This document shows, in pieces, positions 2,020 to 61,571 of a DNA stretch of 64,000 nt. A program made the translations under genes and the position numbers. Source of the stretch: Ktedonobacterales bacterium (GTDB lineage: Bacteria; Chloroflexota; Ktedonobacteria; Ktedonobacterales; DATBGS01); the NCBI GenBank assembly GCA_036557285.1, contig DATBHW010000034.1, forward strand, positions 1 to 64,000. The letters are read 5' to 3'. Numbering within the stretch: the stretch's first letter is position 1; every line of letters begins with the position of its first letter. The notes under the pieces are model-generated. The model saw only the letters and a list, made by a program, of their open reading frames with translations, was not told the origin of the DNA and did not search any database.

Positions 2020-2360
2020 AAGTGCTTTCACATGGTAAGCACGTCTCGTCGAGGCAACGGCACGGCGGCGCCAGTGCATCATCCACCGGCGACGCCGCTC
2101 ATCCCCGGTCCTGATTGAGACAGGAGTTGGGGCTGAGGGCATTCTACCATTCCACTGGCAGAGACCTCTCAGCAGCCACCTTCTGGATCGGCTGAACGCC
2201 AGATGCCGAACGTTGGAGAGGCAGGAACCAGCTTGAAGTCACGCTCAAGCCAGCCGCTGGTCCTCCTCCCTTCGGCAGCGGGCATGCGGCCAGGCGCGAG
2301 GCAGAGCGGCTTCACCCATTCCACAGGTGGCTGCTCTGCTTCAGCCTGTAAGCAGAAAGG
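2020..2360 (+). ncRNA. Structured leader RNA, copy A
   Basis: A roughly 340-nt untranslated region with the shared architecture. A 5' hairpin (GTGCTT/AAGCAC) is followed by a helix GCGGCG/CGCCGC. Then comes CCCC (2103-2106) pairing with GGGG (2129-2132) around a hairpin TCCTG/CAGGA, the core ATTCTACCAT (2141-2150), and a perfect 11-bp long-range helix AGCAGCCACCT (2171-2181) with AGGTGGCTGCT (2325-2335). It ends at the AAAGGAG ribosome site of the small ORF. The same helices have different but compensating sequences in copy C. I do not recognise it as a known riboswitch. Confidence 0.65.
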
Positions 2361-2370
2361 AGCGTCTCAC

Positions 2371-2562
2371 ATGCCAGCTTCCCATCCCTCTTCGATCTTC
2401 CTCCTCACCGCTTTGCAGGCGGGGCGCGACCCCCGACTTTTGCATAGCCCAATCTCTTCCTTTGGACTGGTTGACTCTCTGCTCCAGCTATGGTACGCTG
2501 CTCAAGCAACGCAGCAAGAAGTAGATCGCTGTGAGGGTAGGGCATGTACAACGATCAACTAA
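2371..2562 (+). CDS. Small hypothetical protein behind leader RNA A
   Basis: A 63-codon ORF begins at the ATG that follows AAAGGAG at the 3' end of the structured leader, the same position that the real start codon occupies behind leader copies B and C. It has a mildly hydrophobic first half and no recognisable domain. Its last 19 bases overlap the start of the STAND ATPase, so it may mainly couple ATPase translation to the leader. It could instead be a genuine small protein; codon use gives no strong answer at this length. Confidence 0.45.
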   Translation: MPASHPSSIFLLTALQAGRDPRLLHSPISSFGLVDSLLQLWYAAQATQQEVDRCEGRACTTIN

Positions 2563-4769
2563 GCGTACTCACCAACCGGCGCGAGGCCATTGCGCTCTTT
2601 AACATGCTGCGCGGACGCGACCCCCGGCGACCCTGGCCTATCCTGCCTCTGTTTGTCCTCATGGCCCCTGGCGGCGGCGGCAAAAGCGCGCTCATGGACT
2701 ATCTACGGGATCACCGATGCTGCTCGGATGGCTGCTCCGCGCTGCCCTACGCCTCCCTCGACTTCACCCAACCGCACACGCCCAAAAGCATCCTACATAT
2801 CCTTGTCGCCCTGCGCAACCAGCTTCAAGGACACACCGATGGCAGCGGCAGAAACCTCGTCTTTCCCCGCTTCGACCTGGGCGCGGCCATTGCCCTGGCT
2901 GCCCCCGCCATCGAAACACTGCCACCCACCAACCTCCACGAGCTAGAAATCTGCCTGAGCGAAAGCGTCCCTTTCTTCACCGCCTTGCATCGGCTCAAGA
3001 CACCGCTAGAAAGCGTTGTCCCCTCCATCCCCTACCTGCTCGAAGGCATCATCTGGCCCGCCGAACTCAAACCCTTGCAGACCATCCTCCAGCGCCTGGA
3101 CAAAGAGCCGGGCTGGCGCTGGTATCGTGATTGCGCCAACGACAGCGGCCTGCACAGCGCCAGAAGCCTGCATGATGTCCTGCTGCGCCTCCAGGTCTTG
3201 AGCGCCCTCGAAGGCCAGGAACGCGAATACCTCATCGAAGAAATCCTCGCCGCCGCCTTGATCGCCGATCTGCTTGATGGCCTGGTCACGCGCACCAACC
3301 TCTACTGCTGGGATAAAGCCACTAACGCCGTCATCTTTCTCGATGGCTTCGAAGCCCTGCTCGAAAAATCCAACAATCGCGCCTATCGCCTGCTCGAAAT
3401 CCTCGCCCTGGCCGAACAGCGCCTCAGCAGCGAAAGCGACCCCCTCTTGCTCGTCATAGGCACGCGCAAGCGCCTCTTTTCCGATGAGGAAGAAGGGCCG
3501 GACGCCTCGCCAGAGGAGCAGGCTGCCCCCCTTCTCGCCCGGCGCTATGCCCTGCGACGGCTTCAGGACTGGCTCTCCCTGCTGCCAGAAGACAAAAGCG
3601 CCATTCGGCTGAGCCAGTTAGCCCTGACCCTCCAACTGCCAGAGCTTGGCGCGCGCGGCACGCGCGACTATCTGGCGAAGCTCGACGAACAGCGCGGCAC
3701 GCAGGTCTTTGTTGAAGAAGAACTGGTCAGCGCCATTTGCCAGCTCACCTACGGCCAGCCGCTCTGCCTGGCGCTGGCCGCCGCTGCTGCCCTGGAGGCA
3801 GAGGCGCGCGGCCATCCGCTGGACCCCGCCGAACTCAAGGAAGCCCTGCAATCCGACGCCCTCGCCTTCGGCCAGGCCGACGACTTGCTCTGCTATCTGC
3901 TTGATCTCTTTTTGCGCCAGCTTCCCGAAGGCGAGCGCCGCCAGTTCACCCTCTGCGCCGCCCCGCGCACCCTGGACGCCGCCACGCTGGGCGCGGTCCT
4001 GCAACTCCCCAGCGACGACGAAGCCGCCCGGCAGTGGGAACACTATCGCAGCCTGCCCTTCATGCGGAGCCTCAACGCGCAGCAAATCACCTTCCATCCC
4101 CTGCTGCGCGCCCTCCTGCTAAAGCGGCTGGTTCCGCAGAGAAACCCGCAGAGCGACTATTATCAGGCGCACAGTCGCCTGCGCGCCCATTTTATTCGCT
4201 TCGCCAGCATCGCCGACCTGCACCCCGGCGGCCTGAACAGCGAGCAAGCCCAGATCGAAGCCGCTCATCACGCCCTGGCCCTCGGCCAGCCCGAACTCGC
4301 CATCGCGCTCGGCCTCGCTGCCCAGCAAAGCCAATCCGCCTACTGGTCGCCCCTGCTCGAAGCCGTCTCCCAGGCTCCTGGCGACCTCATGGCCCCCGAA
4401 ACCGAACAGCGCGCCTCCAGCGCCGTCAATCGCGCCAGGCAAAATCACGAAATCCAGGATACCGTCACGGCCCTGATCCTCTACCGCTGGCTGCTCACCT
4501 CCGACCCCAGGAACAAGCTGCACGTCGCCCGCATACGCCACAAGATGGCCGTTGCCTACAGCACCTTGCCGGGCGGCGAACGCCACGCCAACCTGAAGCG
4601 CGCCATCGCTTACTATCAAGCCGCGCTCAAAGTCTATCAAGCAATGCGGATGGACTTCGACATAGAGCGGGCGCAAAAAAGCCTGGAAATCGCCCAGGAC
4701 GAATTGCAAAGCCTGAGCAATGGACGGGGCAGACAGCGCGACGTAATTAGCGTAGCGCCAGGTAGGTGA
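2544..4769 (+). CDS. STAND/NACHT-like ATPase with C-terminal helical repeats
   Basis: A 741-residue P-loop ATPase. Walker A is APGGGGKSA at residues 41-49. A Walker B-like VIFLDGFEAL lies near 262-271 and a sensor-1-like strand LLLVIGTRKR near 302-311. Residues from about 640 to 735 read like tetratricopeptide repeats (for example AIAYYQAALKVYQ). This ATPase-plus-helical-repeat layout is that of STAND NTPases, which act as ligand-triggered switches in signalling or phage defence; no effector domain is evident at either end. The start ATG follows GAGGGT. It overlaps the upstream small ORF and converges, with a 23-base overlap, on a kinase-like gene. The specific role is unknown. Confidence 0.6.
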   Translation: MYNDQLSVLTNRREAIALFNMLRGRDPRRPWPILPLFVLMAPGGGGKSALMDYLRDHRCCSDGCSALPYASLDFTQPHTPKSILHILVALRNQLQGHTDGSGRNLVFPRFDLGAAIALAAPAIETLPPTNLHELEICLSESVPFFTALHRLKTPLESVVPSIPYLLEGIIWPAELKPLQTILQRLDKEPGWRWYRDCANDSGLHSARSLHDVLLRLQVLSALEGQEREYLIEEILAAALIADLLDGLVTRTNLYCWDKATNAVIFLDGFEALLEKSNNRAYRLLEILALAEQRLSSESDPLLLVIGTRKRLFSDEEEGPDASPEEQAAPLLARRYALRRLQDWLSLLPEDKSAIRLSQLALTLQLPELGARGTRDYLAKLDEQRGTQVFVEEELVSAICQLTYGQPLCLALAAAAALEAEARGHPLDPAELKEALQSDALAFGQADDLLCYLLDLFLRQLPEGERRQFTLCAAPRTLDAATLGAVLQLPSDDEAARQWEHYRSLPFMRSLNAQQITFHPLLRALLLKRLVPQRNPQSDYYQAHSRLRAHFIRFASIADLHPGGLNSEQAQIEAAHHALALGQPELAIALGLAAQQSQSAYWSPLLEAVSQAPGDLMAPETEQRASSAVNRARQNHEIQDTVTALILYRWLLTSDPRNKLHVARIRHKMAVAYSTLPGGERHANLKRAIAYYQAALKVYQAMRMDFDIERAQKSLEIAQDELQSLSNGRGRQRDVISVAPGR

Positions 4770-19276: not shown

Positions 19277-19305
19277 TTGACACATGGACCGAAGCAGACT
19301 ATACT
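19277..19305 (+). promoter_or_regulatory. Promoter of leader copy E
   Basis: TTGACA, 17 bases, TATACT. This is a near-consensus housekeeping promoter about 225 bases before the methyltransferase start codon. Confidence 0.75.
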
Positions 19306-19311
19306 CTCAGC

Positions 19312-19525
19312 ATACCCGCTCGCTTGACCCACATCTCACTCTGGAGGGTCGTTCACACCCAACAACTCAAACATCTGAAGAACGACTAGCGCCAGCCGGT
19401 GACTAACACCACCGGCAGCGCCATAACCCTACATTCGGCTCATCCAGATATGGGACTGGGACTCATTGTACCATCGAGACCCCCAGCGACCATATCTGCT
19501 CCGAACTCTCCGGCCTCGTAAGGAG
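19312..19525 (+). ncRNA. Structured leader RNA, copy E (divergent)
   Basis: A shorter, more diverged relative of the other leaders. A 5' helix GTCGTTC/GAACGAC is followed by GCCGGTG/CACCGGC, then CCC (19427-19429) facing GGG (19452-19454) at the usual spacing, and the core CATTGTACCATC (19464-19475) in place of ATTCTACCATC. The inner hairpin is poorly formed, and the long 3' helix of copies A, C and D is not evident. It leads to the TAAGGAG ribosome site of the methyltransferase. Confidence 0.45.
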
Positions 19526-19530
19526 CCTTC

Positions 19531-20370
19531 ATGGACACCCCCGAAACCCAAAAACAACAGATCGCCGGTCTTTATGATCGCGTAGCCGCCGCCTATGGCA
19601 GCGTCGGCCCGAACTTCTTCGCCCATGTCGGCGCGCACCTCATCGAACACATCGGCATAACTCCAGGCGCGCGCGTCCTTGATGTCGCCGCTGGCAGAGG
19701 GGCCAACCTCTTCCCCGCCGCCCGGCAAGTCGGCCCGCGCGGCCAGGTCATCGGCATTGATCTGGCTCCAGGCATGGTCCAGGAAACCACCGCCGAGCTT
19801 GCCCGTCGCGGCATCTCCCACGCCAGCATGCTCCACATGGACGCCGAACACCTCACCTTCCCCGACGCCTCCTTCGACTACCTCCTCTGTGGATTCGCCA
19901 TCTTCCTCTTCCCCCATCTGGAGCAGGCGCTCGCCCACTTCTTCCGCGTCGTGCGCCCCGGCGGGAAAATCGGCATCAGCGTCGCCAGCGACCTCCACGC
20001 CCTCTCCCACTGGTTCGGCCAGCGCCTCACCGACTATCACCAGCGCCATCAGTTCCCCATACGCGCGGGCGGCGGCCAGGGCAGCAACTATGCTCAACTC
20101 CCCCAACACCTCAGCCTGGCTGGCTTTACCGCCATAGAAGTGCGCCAGGAGCAGGCCGATTTCACCTACGCCGACCCCCAGGAATGGTGGAGCGCCCGCT
20201 GGACACACGGCCCGCGCTACGCCCTCGAACACATGCCGCCCGCCGTCCTCGCGCAGTTCCAGGCCGAAGTCCTCGCCAGACTCGCCCAGGAAGCAGCATC
20301 CGGCGGCATTCACGAAACCCTCAACATCCAATATATACTCGCAAGCAAAGATGGTTCTACCAAAAAATGA
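19531..20370 (+). CDS. Class I SAM-dependent methyltransferase (UbiE-like)
   Basis: A 279-residue methyltransferase. It shows motif I VLDVAAGRGANLFPAA, the acidic strand-2 end VIGIDLAPGMV, motif II DASFDYLLCGFAIFLFP and motif III VVRPGGKIGISVAS, in the arrangement of ubiquinone/menaquinone and small-molecule methyltransferases. The ATG follows TAAGGAG. The last residues and the stop codon are supplied by the left end of a composite mobile element, so the original C-terminus has been replaced or trimmed. It is preceded by a structured leader. The substrate is unknown. Confidence 0.85.
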   Translation: MDTPETQKQQIAGLYDRVAAAYGSVGPNFFAHVGAHLIEHIGITPGARVLDVAAGRGANLFPAARQVGPRGQVIGIDLAPGMVQETTAELARRGISHASMLHMDAEHLTFPDASFDYLLCGFAIFLFPHLEQALAHFFRVVRPGGKIGISVASDLHALSHWFGQRLTDYHQRHQFPIRAGGGQGSNYAQLPQHLSLAGFTAIEVRQEQADFTYADPQEWWSARWTHGPRYALEHMPPAVLAQFQAEVLARLAQEAASGGIHETLNIQYILASKDGSTKK

Positions 20371-44807: not shown

Positions 44808-45032
44808 GGTTCCACCAAAAATGAGGTGTTAGCAAGCGAGACCTGTTACTTGTAGCGCCGCCGTCTCGGCGGCCAACGTTGGCCTGCTGGTCCGCTGGCC
44901 TGGAGGGCGAACGCTCGCCCTGGCGAAGCGGTGGCCGCCAAGATGGCGGCGCTACAGGTACACCATCCCCGCAGCCCCCTGCCGCCTGGAAGGCGGCGCT
45001 ACAAGTGGCAACCCCCAATAGTTGGCGGAACC
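44808..45032 (+). mobile_element. Composite repeat element 3 (225 bp), 9-bp target duplication
   Basis: Ends are GGTTCCACCAAAAATGAGG and CAATAGTTGGCGGAACC. CTTTCGTCC lies outside both ends (44799-44807, 45033-45041). The interior has one forward and two reverse hairpin units with a GGAGGGCGAACGCTCGCC hairpin between. Confidence 0.85.
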
Positions 45033-45049: not shown

Positions 45050-45078
45050 TTGACAGAAGCGACACCGCCTGCTATACT
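45050..45078 (+). promoter_or_regulatory. Promoter of leader copy B
   Basis: TTGACA, 17 bases, TATACT: near consensus. It lies immediately downstream of composite element 3. Confidence 0.8.
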
Positions 45079-45084
45079 AAGGTT

Positions 45085-45395
45085 GCTCGGAACAAGAAGT
45101 CTTGCTCCGAGCCGGACCGAACGGCATGACGCAGCGACGTAGTAAACATCGCCACGTCATTACCCCAACCCTGGCGAGACCAGGAGTGGGGCTTTGGGCA
45201 TTCTACCATCTGGACTCTCTTCGGAGAGTGTTTGCTCCTCGGCCTCCTCCTGCAAACGGTTGGGACGCCACTTGTTATCAGGGGAACGCGCGGCTTGCGC
45301 TCCCCTGCTCTGGCAAGCCGGGTGTTTTCCACTGCATCAGGCGGGGGCCGTTTCGGCGTCTTGAGTTGTTCGCTCACGAAGTCGAAAGGAGTCTC
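45085..45395 (+). ncRNA. Structured leader RNA, copy B
   Basis: It begins with a hairpin GCTCGGAACAAG/CTTGCTCCGAGC. Next come ATGACG/CGTCAT, CCCC (45163-45166) with GGGG (45188-45191) around CCTGG/CCAGG, and the core ATTCTACCATC (45200-45210). The hairpin after the core is GGACTCTC-TTCG-GAGAGT, and a later one is CAGGGGAACGCGC/GCGCTCCCCTG. The long 3' helix of copies A, C and D is replaced by GTTTGC/GCAAAC. It ends at the AAAGGAG of the downstream gene. Confidence 0.65.
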
Positions 45396-45399
45396 TCTC

Positions 45400-45858
45400 A
45401 TGGCAATCCCAGGTGGTTTCCCACCCCCTCCGCCGCGTCCACCCTTTGGCCGCTACCGTTTCTCGAACCCGCTGCGCCGCGAATACGGCATCCGCTTGCT
45501 TACGCTGACCCTGCCGGAGCCGCTGCGGCTTGTCCTGACCCGCGCCCTGCGCCGCCCTCCGCTCTTTGACGGCCAGCAGACGCCGCTGGCGGTGCAGAGC
45601 GCCCACTGCCGCCGCCTGAACGATGCCGAGTTAGCGCGCGCCAGCCAGCAGACGAAAAGCACGCTGGTGCTGACCGAGGTGGAGGTGACGCGGCGCACGC
45701 TTGAAGCGCCGCTGGGCAGTATCAGCCGGATGACGCGCAATACGCTGCTGATCGCGCAGGGCGTGCAACTACGCCGTCTGTATCTGGCGCTGGTGGCGCA
45801 GTTGGGTCAGGCGGCTGCGCTGGCGGTCTTCCAGCAGGCGCTGGAGGCGGTGGGGTAG
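45400..45858 (+). CDS. Hypothetical 152-residue protein behind leader RNA B
   Basis: The protein starts with a Pro-rich segment (FPPPPPRPPFGRYRFSNPLRREYG) and continues as a helical, Arg/Leu-rich domain with strands LVLTEVEVTRRTLEAPLGSISRMTRNTLL. I do not recognise a family. The start ATG is set by AAAGGAG at the end of the leader. There is no signal peptide and no transmembrane helix. It stands alone; the leader suggests regulated expression. Its composition is strongly coding-like. Confidence 0.55.
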   Translation: MAIPGGFPPPPPRPPFGRYRFSNPLRREYGIRLLTLTLPEPLRLVLTRALRRPPLFDGQQTPLAVQSAHCRRLNDAELARASQQTKSTLVLTEVEVTRRTLEAPLGSISRMTRNTLLIAQGVQLRRLYLALVAQLGQAAALAVFQQALEAVG

Positions 45859-50165: not shown

Positions 50166-50193
50166 TTGACGGTGAGCAAAAAGCGCCTATAGT
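50166..50193 (+). promoter_or_regulatory. Promoter of leader copy C, overlapped by a DnaA box
   Basis: TTGACG, 16 bases, TATAGT. The last base of the -10 is the first base of a DnaA box. Confidence 0.65.
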
Positions 50194-50242: not shown

Positions 50243-50470
50243 ATGGCATGGCGCCAGGGTGCAAAAGACACCGCAAGCGCCATTGACCCCACATCTGGTA
50301 CGAGCCAGTGGACGGGGCTGGAAGATTCTATCATCTTTGAGATGATGATTTCTCAGCGGCCACCTGCTGGCAGGGCATACCGTACAGGCCAGAGGTGGCC
50401 GCTTCGTATGCGGCCACTGGGGAGAAATGCCGGGGATTGGCAGAGTTATCCACAAGCATGTGTGTGTTGG
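50200..50470 (+). ncRNA. Structured leader RNA, copy C
   Basis: After the 5' helix come ATGGCGC/GCGCCAT, CCCC (50287-50290) with GGGG (50314-50317) around TCTGG/CCAGT, and the core GATTCTATCATC (50324-50335). A small CATC/GATG hairpin follows, then the long helix AGCGGCCACCT (50355-50365) with AGGTGGCCGCT (50393-50403) containing an inner CTGG/CCAG. Compared with copy A, the helix differs by a compensated G-C to A-T change, supporting base-pairing. Confidence 0.7.
50446..50454 (+). promoter_or_regulatory. Third DnaA box
   Basis: Perfect TTATCCACA, about 215 bases downstream of the paired boxes and 170 bases before the antirepressor-like gene. Confidence 0.7.
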
Positions 50471-50473
50471 GGC

Positions 50474-50600
50474 AAAGGGGGTGTCGAATGGACACCCCCT
50501 TGGGCAAAGGGGGTCTATAATGTAGACCCCCTTACCATAAAAGTTGCCCGAATTACGGACCCCCTTTGGCAAAGGGGGTCTGGATTACGGACCCCCTTAC
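50474..50600. promoter_or_regulatory. Array of three palindromes before the antirepressor-like gene
   Basis: AAGGGGGTGTC-GAATG-GACACCCCCTT and AAGGGGGTCTA-TAATG-TAGACCCCCTT are perfect 11-5-11 palindromes with different arm ends. A third related one (AAGGGGGTC...GACCCCCTT, 50572-50598) ends 20 bases before the start codon. They may be operators, mRNA hairpins, or both. The second places a TATAAT at its centre. Confidence 0.7.
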
Positions 50601-50617: not shown

Positions 50618-51313
50618 ATGTCAGAAACCGAACTCATTCCGGTGGCACAGGCTGAATTGAAGGTAGCGAGCGTATCATTGATTGCTGTTCTTTTGCCTGA
50701 TGGGCAAACCGGTGCTGTCCTCTCGATGCTCTGCGAGGCATTAGACCTGCGAACTCGCAGCCAGGCACAAAAGCTACGTACCCATCCGGTACTGTCTCTG
50801 GCCCTGGTTCTGGCTAAAATAGAGACGGCAGGCGGGGAACAGGTGGTCAATGTCTTGCTGTCGTGGGGCGTTCCCTTATGGCTTGCGAGCATCCGCGCTG
50901 GAGGGCGTTCCCCCGCTTACCGAGAACGATTATTGACCATGCAGCGTGAAGTGGCCGCCGCGCTGTGTCGGCAGTTCTTCTCTAATCTGTCTACAAACAC
51001 TCCAACTTCTTCCACTTCCCCTGGAGAGCCATCTGAGACACTTCTCTCATCGCCCTGGCAGGCATTGCATGCTGCTCTGTCGGCGTTAGAGGCGTCACTA
51101 GATGCCGACGCGCTGGCGGTGGGCGGACGGCTGGCGGCGCTGGAGGCGCAGGCAGCACAATCGTCAGCAAGCGAGCATAATCATGTGAGCCAAGAGCGTT
51201 TGTTGGCGGCGGCGATTGAGCGATTGCTTGTGCATGAGCGCCGGTTGAACAGGCTGAAAGGGCGAGGCCCACAGAAGAGGCGGCGCGGGAAGGCGCGCCG
51301 CTTTGGCAGGTGA
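50618..51313 (+). CDS. Phage-antirepressor-N-like DNA-binding protein (P22_AR_N), paralogue 1
   Basis: A 231-residue protein. Residues 1-95 (LIAVLLPDGQTGAVLSMLCEALDLRTRSQAQKLRTHPVL...VLLSWGVPLWLASI) match the layout of the P22 antirepressor N-terminal domain. A helical, coiled-coil-like segment (SALEASLDADALAVGGRLAALEAQ) and a very basic tail (KGRGPQKRRRGKARR) follow. In phages this domain belongs to antirepressors; here it lacks an antirepressor C-terminus and no phage genes are nearby, so it is probably a domesticated regulator. ATG after AGAGGAG. A paralogue with the same gene structure lies at 60.35-61.13 kb. Confidence 0.65.
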   Translation: MSETELIPVAQAELKVASVSLIAVLLPDGQTGAVLSMLCEALDLRTRSQAQKLRTHPVLSLALVLAKIETAGGEQVVNVLLSWGVPLWLASIRAGGRSPAYRERLLTMQREVAAALCRQFFSNLSTNTPTSSTSPGEPSETLLSSPWQALHAALSALEASLDADALAVGGRLAALEAQAAQSSASEHNHVSQERLLAAAIERLLVHERRLNRLKGRGPQKRRRGKARRFGR

Positions 51314-60352: not shown

Positions 60353-61129
60353 CTATTGCAGACTGTCGAACCAGTCGAGGACGGCAGGCCAGGCGCTTTC
60401 GGGCAGGTCGGAAACGTCCTCGACCTCGAAGTGGTCGGCCAGCCCGGCCAGCGTTTCACCGATGGGCAGGCCCTGGCTGGCGCGCAGCTGGCGCGCCAGC
60501 AGGTAGATTTGCTTTAGCCGCTGCCCAGAATAGGCCACAATGGGCCGCGCTGGCCCGCCTTCCAGCGTGGTGACGCGCTCTTCGAGGTGTTGCTGGGTCT
60601 CTTCCACTGCCGCCAGACGGGCGCCTACCTCCTGCTGGTCTGCATGCGGCTGGCGGCGCAGCACCTCAAACTCACTTTCCAGGTGATGCAGGAAGGCATG
60701 CCCTTCCTGCCAGACGGATTGAGGCGCTGAAGCCTGGCTGGGAGGAGGCGGGACATTCGCATTGGCCGCTCGCTCGGCAAAGGCTCGTTCAATCAGGTCA
60801 ACAGCCTTTTGCTGCAATGCCAACGATACTGGTTGTTTTGCCTCCGGCAACCGAGAAACTTGCAGACCAGCAGCCCAGATAGGAATCGCCCAATGGAGTA
60901 AGACGTGCATTTCTATAGTGGTACTTCCAAACGGCATTGGCACTAAGACTAGAGCCTGAGAAAGCTTGGGATGCCTTCTCACACGAGCAAGCTGGCTGCT
61001 AAAATCGATGTCTAGAATCCGACATAAGGAGCGCAGTGTGGCCCCCAGCCGTCCATCAGGAAGTTGTAGAACATCAATTGGCGGAATCGTCGCCCCAATG
61101 CGAACCGGGATGAGCGTCAGGTTCATCAT
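60353..61129 (-). CDS. Phage-antirepressor-N-like protein (P22_AR_N), paralogue 2
   Basis: A 258-residue paralogue of the gene at 50.6 kb. The first 95 residues align in order (LIPVRIGATIPPIDVLQLPDGRLGATLRSLCRILDIDFSSQLARVRRHPKLSQALV...VLLHWAIPIWAAGL). A central helical segment (WQEGHAFLHHLESEFEVL) and a coiled coil (RLAAVEETQQHLEERVTTLEGG) follow. The C-terminal region QRLKQIYLLARQLRASQGLPIG resembles antirepressor/KilA-C-type helices. It is more complete than paralogue 1. No AGGAGG lies close to ATG at 61129. It is preceded by palindromes and a structured leader, as is paralogue 1. Confidence 0.65.
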   Translation of the reverse strand: MMNLTLIPVRIGATIPPIDVLQLPDGRLGATLRSLCRILDIDFSSQLARVRRHPKLSQALVLVPMPFGSTTIEMHVLLHWAIPIWAAGLQVSRLPEAKQPVSLALQQKAVDLIERAFAERAANANVPPPPSQASAPQSVWQEGHAFLHHLESEFEVLRRQPHADQQEVGARLAAVEETQQHLEERVTTLEGGPARPIVAYSGQRLKQIYLLARQLRASQGLPIGETLAGLADHFEVEDVSDLPESAWPAVLDWFDSLQ

Positions 61130-61161
61130 AAACACCCCACTGTTATACGATAAAAATCTTG

Positions 61162-61220
61162 GGTCATGGTCATTATAACCATGACCTGTGGTCGTTATGA
61201 CCATGACCTATGGTCATAAC
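61162..61220. promoter_or_regulatory. Palindrome pair before antirepressor-like paralogue 2
   Basis: GTTATGACCAT-GACCT-ATGGTCATAAC (61194-61220) is a perfect 11-5-11 palindrome. GGTCATGGT...ACCATGACC (61162-61186) has 9-bp arms around a TATAAT on the minus strand. The geometry is the same as the array in front of paralogue 1, with unrelated sequence. Confidence 0.7.
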
Positions 61221-61243
61221 GGTATCCCCTTGGAGTAAAAGGA

Positions 61244-61261: not shown

Positions 61262-61536
61262 GTTCTCTGCCTCCTTAGTGTGATCTCGCGCAGGCGGCGC
61301 TGGAAGTGAAACGGCCATCCCCTGATGCGCGCGGGCCAGGCGATAGGCTGTTCGCCTGGGTGCTCAGGAGATGGCCGCTGAGAGGGGGAAACTCTATCGG
61401 GTGATAGAATGCTCCCAGCCCCATGCCCGGCGTTGGTCAGGAGTGGGGTGAGTGGCGCTGCCAGCGATTGGTACTGGCGGCGCTACGTGGTATAGTTGAG
61501 TTGTCAAGGTGCGCGGCGCGGTTGGTTGGGAATGCT
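61262..61536 (-). ncRNA. Structured leader RNA, copy D
   Basis: Read on the minus strand: a helix GCGC-GCCAG/CTGGC-GCGC, CCCC (61448-61445) with GGGG (61422-61419) around CCTG/CGGG, and the core CATTCTATCA (61411-61402). The long helix AGCGGCCATC-TCCTGA (61379-61364) pairs with TCAGG-GATGGCCG (61325-61311), enclosing CCAGGCGA/TCGCCTGG. The helix matches copies A and C in position but differs by paired substitutions. Confidence 0.65.
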
Positions 61537-61542
61537 GAGTAG

Positions 61543-61571
61543 AGTATACCGGCTGATTGGGTAGAAGTCAA
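61543..61571 (-). promoter_or_regulatory. Promoter of leader copy D
   Basis: TTGACT, 17 bases, TATACT on the minus strand. Confidence 0.75.

Follow-up and report, generated by a model that had tools for sequence, protein, structure and literature searches.

A covarying leader element that probably encodes convergent antisense-RNA control, dispersed in 36 copies through a Ktedonobacterales genome

A recurring leader element in the genome of a Ktedonobacterales bacterium is best read as convergent antisense-RNA control of a terminator-bearing leader, each copy forming one sense/antisense module, and we put the probability of this reading at about 0.7. The element was examined in the window, a 64,000-nt stretch of contig DATBHW010000034.1 (GCA_036557285.1), and in further genomes. 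A strong sigma-70 promoter would make a leader with a terminator-like hairpin (P4) at its end, directly ahead of the gene, and an extended -10 promoter between P2 and P4, facing the opposite direction, would make an antisense RNA of ~70-90 nt containing P2' and P1'. Starting opposite GGGGCT, this RNA would cover P2 and P1 and would pair with the nascent leader through P1, the putative specificity hairpin, and through P2. Such pairing would cover GGGGCT and block P3 (GCTGGG/CYCAGC), leaving P4 free to terminate, and without the antisense RNA transcription would read into the gene. With its promoter and terminator-like hairpin the leader is very probably regulatory, and the regulation may run through translation or decay, in the style of type I toxin-antitoxin systems, instead of termination. 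Judged from sequence, the element is best read as a new family, amplified and hypervariable, that uses a mechanism of a kind already known.

The layout runs from the sense promoter through a variable 5' stretch, sometimes with a hairpin, to P1, P2, GCTG, the core, P3, P4, an SD and the gene. P1 is a two-part hairpin, P2 has the form CCCC-hairpin-GGGG, P3 the general form GCTGGGRG with CYCYCAGC, and P4 the general form AGCGGCCAYCTYCTGG...CAGGAGRTGGCCGYTT. A sense promoter score of 9 or more out of 12 was reached in 61 of 70 copies, compared with 10.8% of shuffles. The original prediction had claimed five copies in the window, each with a strong promoter and all with a shared order of elements. 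The copies are real and their promoters score 9.5-11 of 12; copies A-E align around the core, and copy E has lost the 3' arm of its last hairpin (P4). The features of the window copies are as follows.

2058-2152, + strand: copy A, element
-35 TTGACG at 1985-1990 and -10 TATACT at 2008-2013, + strand: copy A, sense promoter, 10 of 12, spacer 17
2063-2097: copy A, P1, the hypervariable hairpin putatively used for recognition, with pairing conserved chiefly in the antisense RNA
2103-2132: copy A, P2 (CCCC...GGGG), in leader and antisense RNA alike
2141-2149, - strand: copy A, antisense extended -10 TGGTAGAAT, the core of the original prediction
2055-2134, - strand: copy A, predicted antisense RNA, start at 2134 (A), back across P2 and then P1
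GCTGAGGG at 2132-2139 with CTCTCAGC at 2166-2173, + strand: copy A, P3, candidate anti-terminator
2171-2335, + strand: copy A, P4, long terminator-like hairpin AGCAGCCACCT...AGGTGGCTGCT
2371-2562, + strand: copy A, 63-aa ORF with SD AAAGGAG
2544-4769, + strand: copy A, second ORF, 741 aa, after the 63-aa ORF
19277-19305, + strand: copy E, sense promoter TTGACA/TATACT, 11 of 12
19383-19476, + strand: copy E, P1-P2-core, P4 3' arm missing
19473->19465, - strand: copy E, antisense extended -10 TGGTACAAT, predicted start about 19457
19531-20370, + strand: copy E, methyltransferase gene (Methyltransf_25, E=1.8e-21)
45050-45078, + strand: copy B, sense promoter TTGACA/TATACT, 11 of 12
45122-45211, + strand: copy B, element (P1 45126-45160, P2 45163-45191)
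45208->45200, - strand: copy B, antisense extended -10, predicted start about 45193
45240-45350, + strand: copy B, P4 hairpin
45400-45858, + strand: copy B, gene for a 152-aa orphan protein whose model is all-helical and which matched no family or fold
50166-50193, + strand: copy C, sense promoter TTGACG/TATAGT
50244-50336, + strand: copy C, P1-P2-core
50333->50325, - strand: copy C, antisense extended -10, predicted start about 50318
50355-50403, + strand: copy C, P4 hairpin
50618-51313, + strand: copy C, P22_AR_N antirepressor-like gene (E=4e-10)
61543-61571, - strand: copy D, sense promoter TTGACT/TATACT
61399-61489, - strand: copy D, P1-P2-core
61402->61410, + strand: copy D, antisense extended -10, predicted start about 61417
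61312-61377, - strand: copy D, P4 hairpin
60353-61129, - strand: copy D, P22_AR_N-like gene (E=9.6e-4, below Pfam's cut-off)

A covariance model built from copies A-E (R1) found 36 copies in the 5.1-Mb genome of the window, with a score gap between the weakest real copy (28.5 bits) and the next match (14.7 bits). A refined model from 37 sequences (R2) returned the same 36 copies, all at 39 bits or more, and its next match (27.6 bits) was the antisense of a known copy. The window has four occurrences of the motif ATTCTAYCA, where 0.28 would be expected; among the model matches, conservation of this core is partly built in, since the family was collected with models containing it. The claimed covariation of the helices was borne out in P1 and P2, where 17 of 18 pairs have changed on both sides among 60 sequences from several families. 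Cells with two-sided changes numbered 153, while shuffles gave 43.5 ± 5.3 and sliding the structure gave 23-46; RNAalifold returned no structure on alignment A3, probably owing to gaps. In the window and 15 further loci nothing in Rfam, including riboswitches, ctRNAs, sar, C4 and SymR, matched at gathering score, and no description of the element appeared in the literature searched. The proposal of an undescribed regulatory RNA family holds in that the element is real, covarying, upstream of genes and without an Rfam match, but its kind had probably been misread, and a riboswitch-like leader is improbable. Model matches at L088-L090 were weak and false by eye, lacking the core or P4, and a pairing of the core with 16S rRNA was dropped over one mismatch. 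Seven of the 36 copies sit on the 86-kb contig of the window, a concentration that points to an element-rich region or replicon.

On the opposite strand the core ATTSTAYCA reads TGNTANAAT, an extended -10 promoter (TGRTASAAT). Base counts of the reverse-complemented core over 70 copies were T67 G67 N T70 A70 N A58 A68 T69, and the third base of the -10 is the free one in an extended -10 element. Agreement at seven or more of eight positions was found in 54 of 70 copies, compared with 0.46% of shuffled regions and none of the 70 on the sense strand, and four of the five copies in the genome G056 have a perfect TGnTATAAT. Just upstream of the core lies an invariant GGCTG, which reads CAGCC on the antisense strand and so places a purine start (CAG) 6-7 nt past the antisense -10 in nearly all copies. 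No antisense -35 was recognisable in the window copies and none is conserved in the family; a few copies have a fair one by eye, such as TTGACC in C24_22910. Missing -35 conservation is common among extended -10 promoters. That the core is the extended -10 of a predicted promoter for a short (~70-90 nt) antisense RNA across P2 and P1 is well supported. The "unpaired core" described earlier is therefore real as an invariant sequence, but it is not simply an unpaired RNA loop. The case shows a trap: what looks like an invariant "loop" within a covarying element may turn out to be an opposite-strand promoter.

A new riboswitch or protein-binding leader would have the ATTSTAYCA loop as a ligand- or protein-binding core in the sense RNA, with P3 and P4 as the expression platform. 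The covariation of P1 and P2, the enclosure of the core by the P3 loop, the terminator-like P4 before genes and the lack of an Rfam match would all suit it. However, the core fits an extended -10 on the opposite strand with correct start-site spacing, and the behaviour of P1 described below also argues against it, so that we regard it as improbable.

The A·C versus G·U test reveals the strand to which a structure belongs. A single mutation in a G-C pair appears as G·U when one strand is read and as A·C when the opposite one is, so that a surplus of either type marks the strand that must stay paired. P1 in the leader showed 63 A·C against 4 G·U, that is, 63 G·U in the antisense RNA, and outer P2 showed 22 A·C and 5 G·U; the A·C surplus in the leader indicates that these helices are kept paired in the antisense RNA. 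Inner P2 (7 A·C, 18 G·U) is biased to the sense strand, P4 (14 A·C, 68 G·U) is a sense helix, and P3 (12 A·C, 24 G·U) leans to the leader. When folded freely, the antisense version of P1 was the more stable one in 62 of 70 copies (sign test, 2e-11). It should be noted that the covariance model was built on the leader strand, and any bias from it opposes this result. Pairing kept on the antisense strand for P1 and on the sense strand for P4 is well supported, and the former again disagrees with a sense-strand aptamer.

The same asymmetry bears on a third view, that the element is mobile-element debris, a recently spread cassette whose hairpins serve DNA, as operators or recombination sites, and not RNA. 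The repeated cassette-like blocks, the copies near assembly breaks and the FtsK, HTH_17 and T5orf172 mobile-element genes around the element are in keeping with such an origin. However, the A·C versus G·U asymmetry requires selection on one transcribed strand, opposite for P1 and P4, and promoters are kept on both strands across families, which makes this view very improbable.

P1 is hypervariable among copies that are otherwise nearly identical. Between C71_35083 and C47_80699, P1 differs at 9 of 40 positions, whereas the 125 positions of P2-P4 and the 60 upstream show no difference (P=1.4e-6); the P1 stem changes from CTGCGG/CCGCAG to GTACGG/CCGTAC with pairing kept. The same pattern was found in four more pairs at P<1e-5 and one at 6e-4, within and between species; the change is not universal, as some pairs, such as C24_22910 and C47_43499, retain P1 too. 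A distinct P1 is present in 35 of the 36 copies of the window's genome. Such variability is opposite to that of ligand aptamers, which are the conserved part of a riboswitch, and a riboswitch-like aptamer is not what the hypervariable, apparently antisense-paired P1 resembles. YUNR U-turns were not enriched in the P1 loop of the antisense RNA, with 25 observed and 22.2 in shuffles; the sense P1 loop had 30, compared with 18.6.

Under convergent antisense control, a private P1 in each copy would give control without cross-reaction or element-specific immunity. That the genome holds ~35 private antisense switches with an actively diversified P1, possibly as an immunity repertoire, is a tentative proposal that we consider unlikely as it stands. 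If it were true, a resident antisense RNA would silence incoming elements with a matching leader, and new P1 types would be favoured as new incompatibility or immunity groups.

The terminator-like character of P4 varies among copies. Canonical terminators stand right before the SD in L085, L095, L098 and C25, and a good T-run is also present in L094 and others; many copies in the window's genome have a P4 with a long interior and only 3-5 T after it. The strands of P3, the candidate anti-terminator, pair better with their own partners than with those of other copies (18.57 against 16.88 ± 0.39, permutation). P3 and P4 overlap by only about 3 nt, the 3' strand of P3 sharing AGC with the start of P4, which on paper gives them little scope to compete. 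A good U-run after P1', which would serve as the antisense 3' terminator, was found in some genomes only, for example G376.

Apart from two antirepressor-like paralogues, the genes downstream had been described as unrelated, but across the genome they are less so: members of one divergent orphan family (146-180 aa) follow at least 11 copies, and P22_AR_N-type genes follow six, of which three score above or near Pfam's cut-off and the rest more weakly. Profile comparisons between orphan-family subgroups mostly gave 1e-4 to 1e-7, and because reversed-sequence controls ranged from 7e-4 to 0.2, the weakest of these links are tentative. The orphan protein matched no Pfam, PHROGs or PADLOC family, and its AlphaFold model (pLDDT 80) matched no PDB fold. 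A second group of four to five genes (C24, C41, C55_43334, C82, C47_43499) could not be joined to the orphan family. A methyltransferase, an FtsK-like ATPase and other proteins are each encoded behind a single copy in the window's genome, and among the targets in other genomes are an FtsK/SpoIIIE ATPase, a T5orf172 protein and a Bro-N protein (the last in G020). The shared theme of the targets is accessory and mobile-element genes; the lack of a common metabolic theme is a further point against a riboswitch.

Blocks of ~0.8-1.0 kb, consisting of promoter, leader and one gene, recur in the window's genome. Monocistronic cassettes of this size with a single orphan gene of 150-190 aa recall type I toxin-antitoxin systems, in which the same antisense RNA would silence toxic orphan proteins, mainly through translation block or mRNA decay. 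The antisense RNA is also close to SymR in size and two-hairpin shape, and on the antisense strand of L126 the SymR model (RF01809) gives a weak match over its whole length (27.3 bits, cut-off 61), which was not reproduced, none exceeding the cut-off in 11 genomes. However, the predicted antisense RNA lies 50-280 nt upstream of the SD and leaves the ribosome site uncovered, unlike SymR (PMC4147584), and the targets include FtsK-like ATPases, a methyltransferase and antirepressor-like proteins. We therefore consider a toxin-antitoxin function possible and, on balance, unlikely.

Convergent antisense attenuation has known parallels. In pT181, an antisense RNA attenuates leader transcription by letting a terminator form (PMC4878617), and changing the first hairpin, which sets specificity, changes specificity (PMC3753616, PMC4878617). 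Like the pT181/pIP501 attenuators (ctRNA_pT181), the element has a predicted convergent antisense RNA over the 5' leader, a candidate terminator before the gene and a putative specificity hairpin, of which in pT181 the loop and upper stem set orthogonality (PMC3753616, PMC4878617). Unlike them, it has no Rfam match, occurs as 36 dispersed chromosomal copies before non-replication genes and has an antisense promoter of the extended -10 type, and its termination at P4 is a predicted step. Antirepressors are classic targets of antisense RNAs (sar, c4), and c4 underlies heteroimmunity (PMC12197685). As in P22 sar and P1/P7 c4, a short predicted antisense RNA would control antirepressor-type genes; unlike these RNAs, which act at the translation start and are known to Rfam, the pairing region here lies far upstream, most targets are not antirepressors and Rfam has no match. 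SymR, a ~77-nt antisense RNA with two hairpins that starts opposite the 5' part of its target, covers the start codon and RBS of symE (PMC4147584); here both sites are uncovered and the protein is not SymE-like.

Few natural antisense-run transcriptional attenuators exist, a dearth remarked on in one synthetic-biology paper (PMC3753616). Engineered orthogonal pT181 attenuators combine varied sensing hairpins with a shared chassis (PMC3753616), and the element appears to offer ~35 natural variants of this design in one genome. Such variants on one chassis, with only the recognition hairpin altered among copies that are otherwise the same, would show how antisense specificity evolves, and the natural set would supply ready-made orthogonal parts.

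Relatives detected with R2 in other Chloroflexota, spread over several families, included five copies in G056, three in G299 and up to five in G263, with others in G101, G068, G359, G376 and G020. In the family of G263, 13 of 41 genomes carry the element. In the window's own order, only G020 has a copy, a single one, besides the window's genome among 41 sampled, so that the expansion to 36 is peculiar to that genome among those sampled. A scan of ~85,000 species genomes gave five confirmed matches, all Chloroflexales records, including Oscillochloris sp. ZM17-4, Chloroflexales bacterium ZM16-3 and Candidatus Viridilinea halotolerans; the pattern was strict, and the element may occur beyond its matches. 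Scan matches in Bacteroidales and Brevibacillus were rejected at 16.1 and 13.6 bits. Viral contigs gave two chance matches, one at 13.8 bits and the other without a model match up to E=0.1.

Several minor observations concern the surroundings of the element. In five Chloroflexales loci (L126, L128, L127, L129, L131), the end of a small HTH_17 (excisionase-like) gene reaches the sense promoter, and inspection by eye showed a conserved ~20-aa leader ORF (...LPRGILR...GGSP) ahead of the orphan gene. The second gene after the leader at L108 (G263:C122) encodes a 194-aa protein with weak Cas6/RAMP similarity (PADLOC E=0.013) and a Gly-rich C-terminal motif, and it follows the orphan gene in Chloroflexales. 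Palindromic, operator-like repeat arrays (CCCCCTTTGGCAAAGGGGG, GACCATAGGTCATGGTC, TTATCCACAA) lie between the leader and antirepressor-like genes at 50460-50600 and 61150-61230 of the window and also at C34_77759 and C32_3057, with sequences that vary between copies. The window's genome also has many instances of a dispersed GC-rich intergenic repeat (...CAGGATGGCGGCGCTACA...), for example at 1820-1850 and 44980-45005 of the window, and translations of this repeat cluster across 21 of the 36 copy neighbourhoods. Furthermore, many copies lie 100-370 nt from the point where a contig stops, and this point is downstream of the leader (C71:362, C1:118, C19:265, C35:373, C76:199700 and several relatives, G412, G400 and G402), as expected if near-identical downstream cassettes break the assembly.
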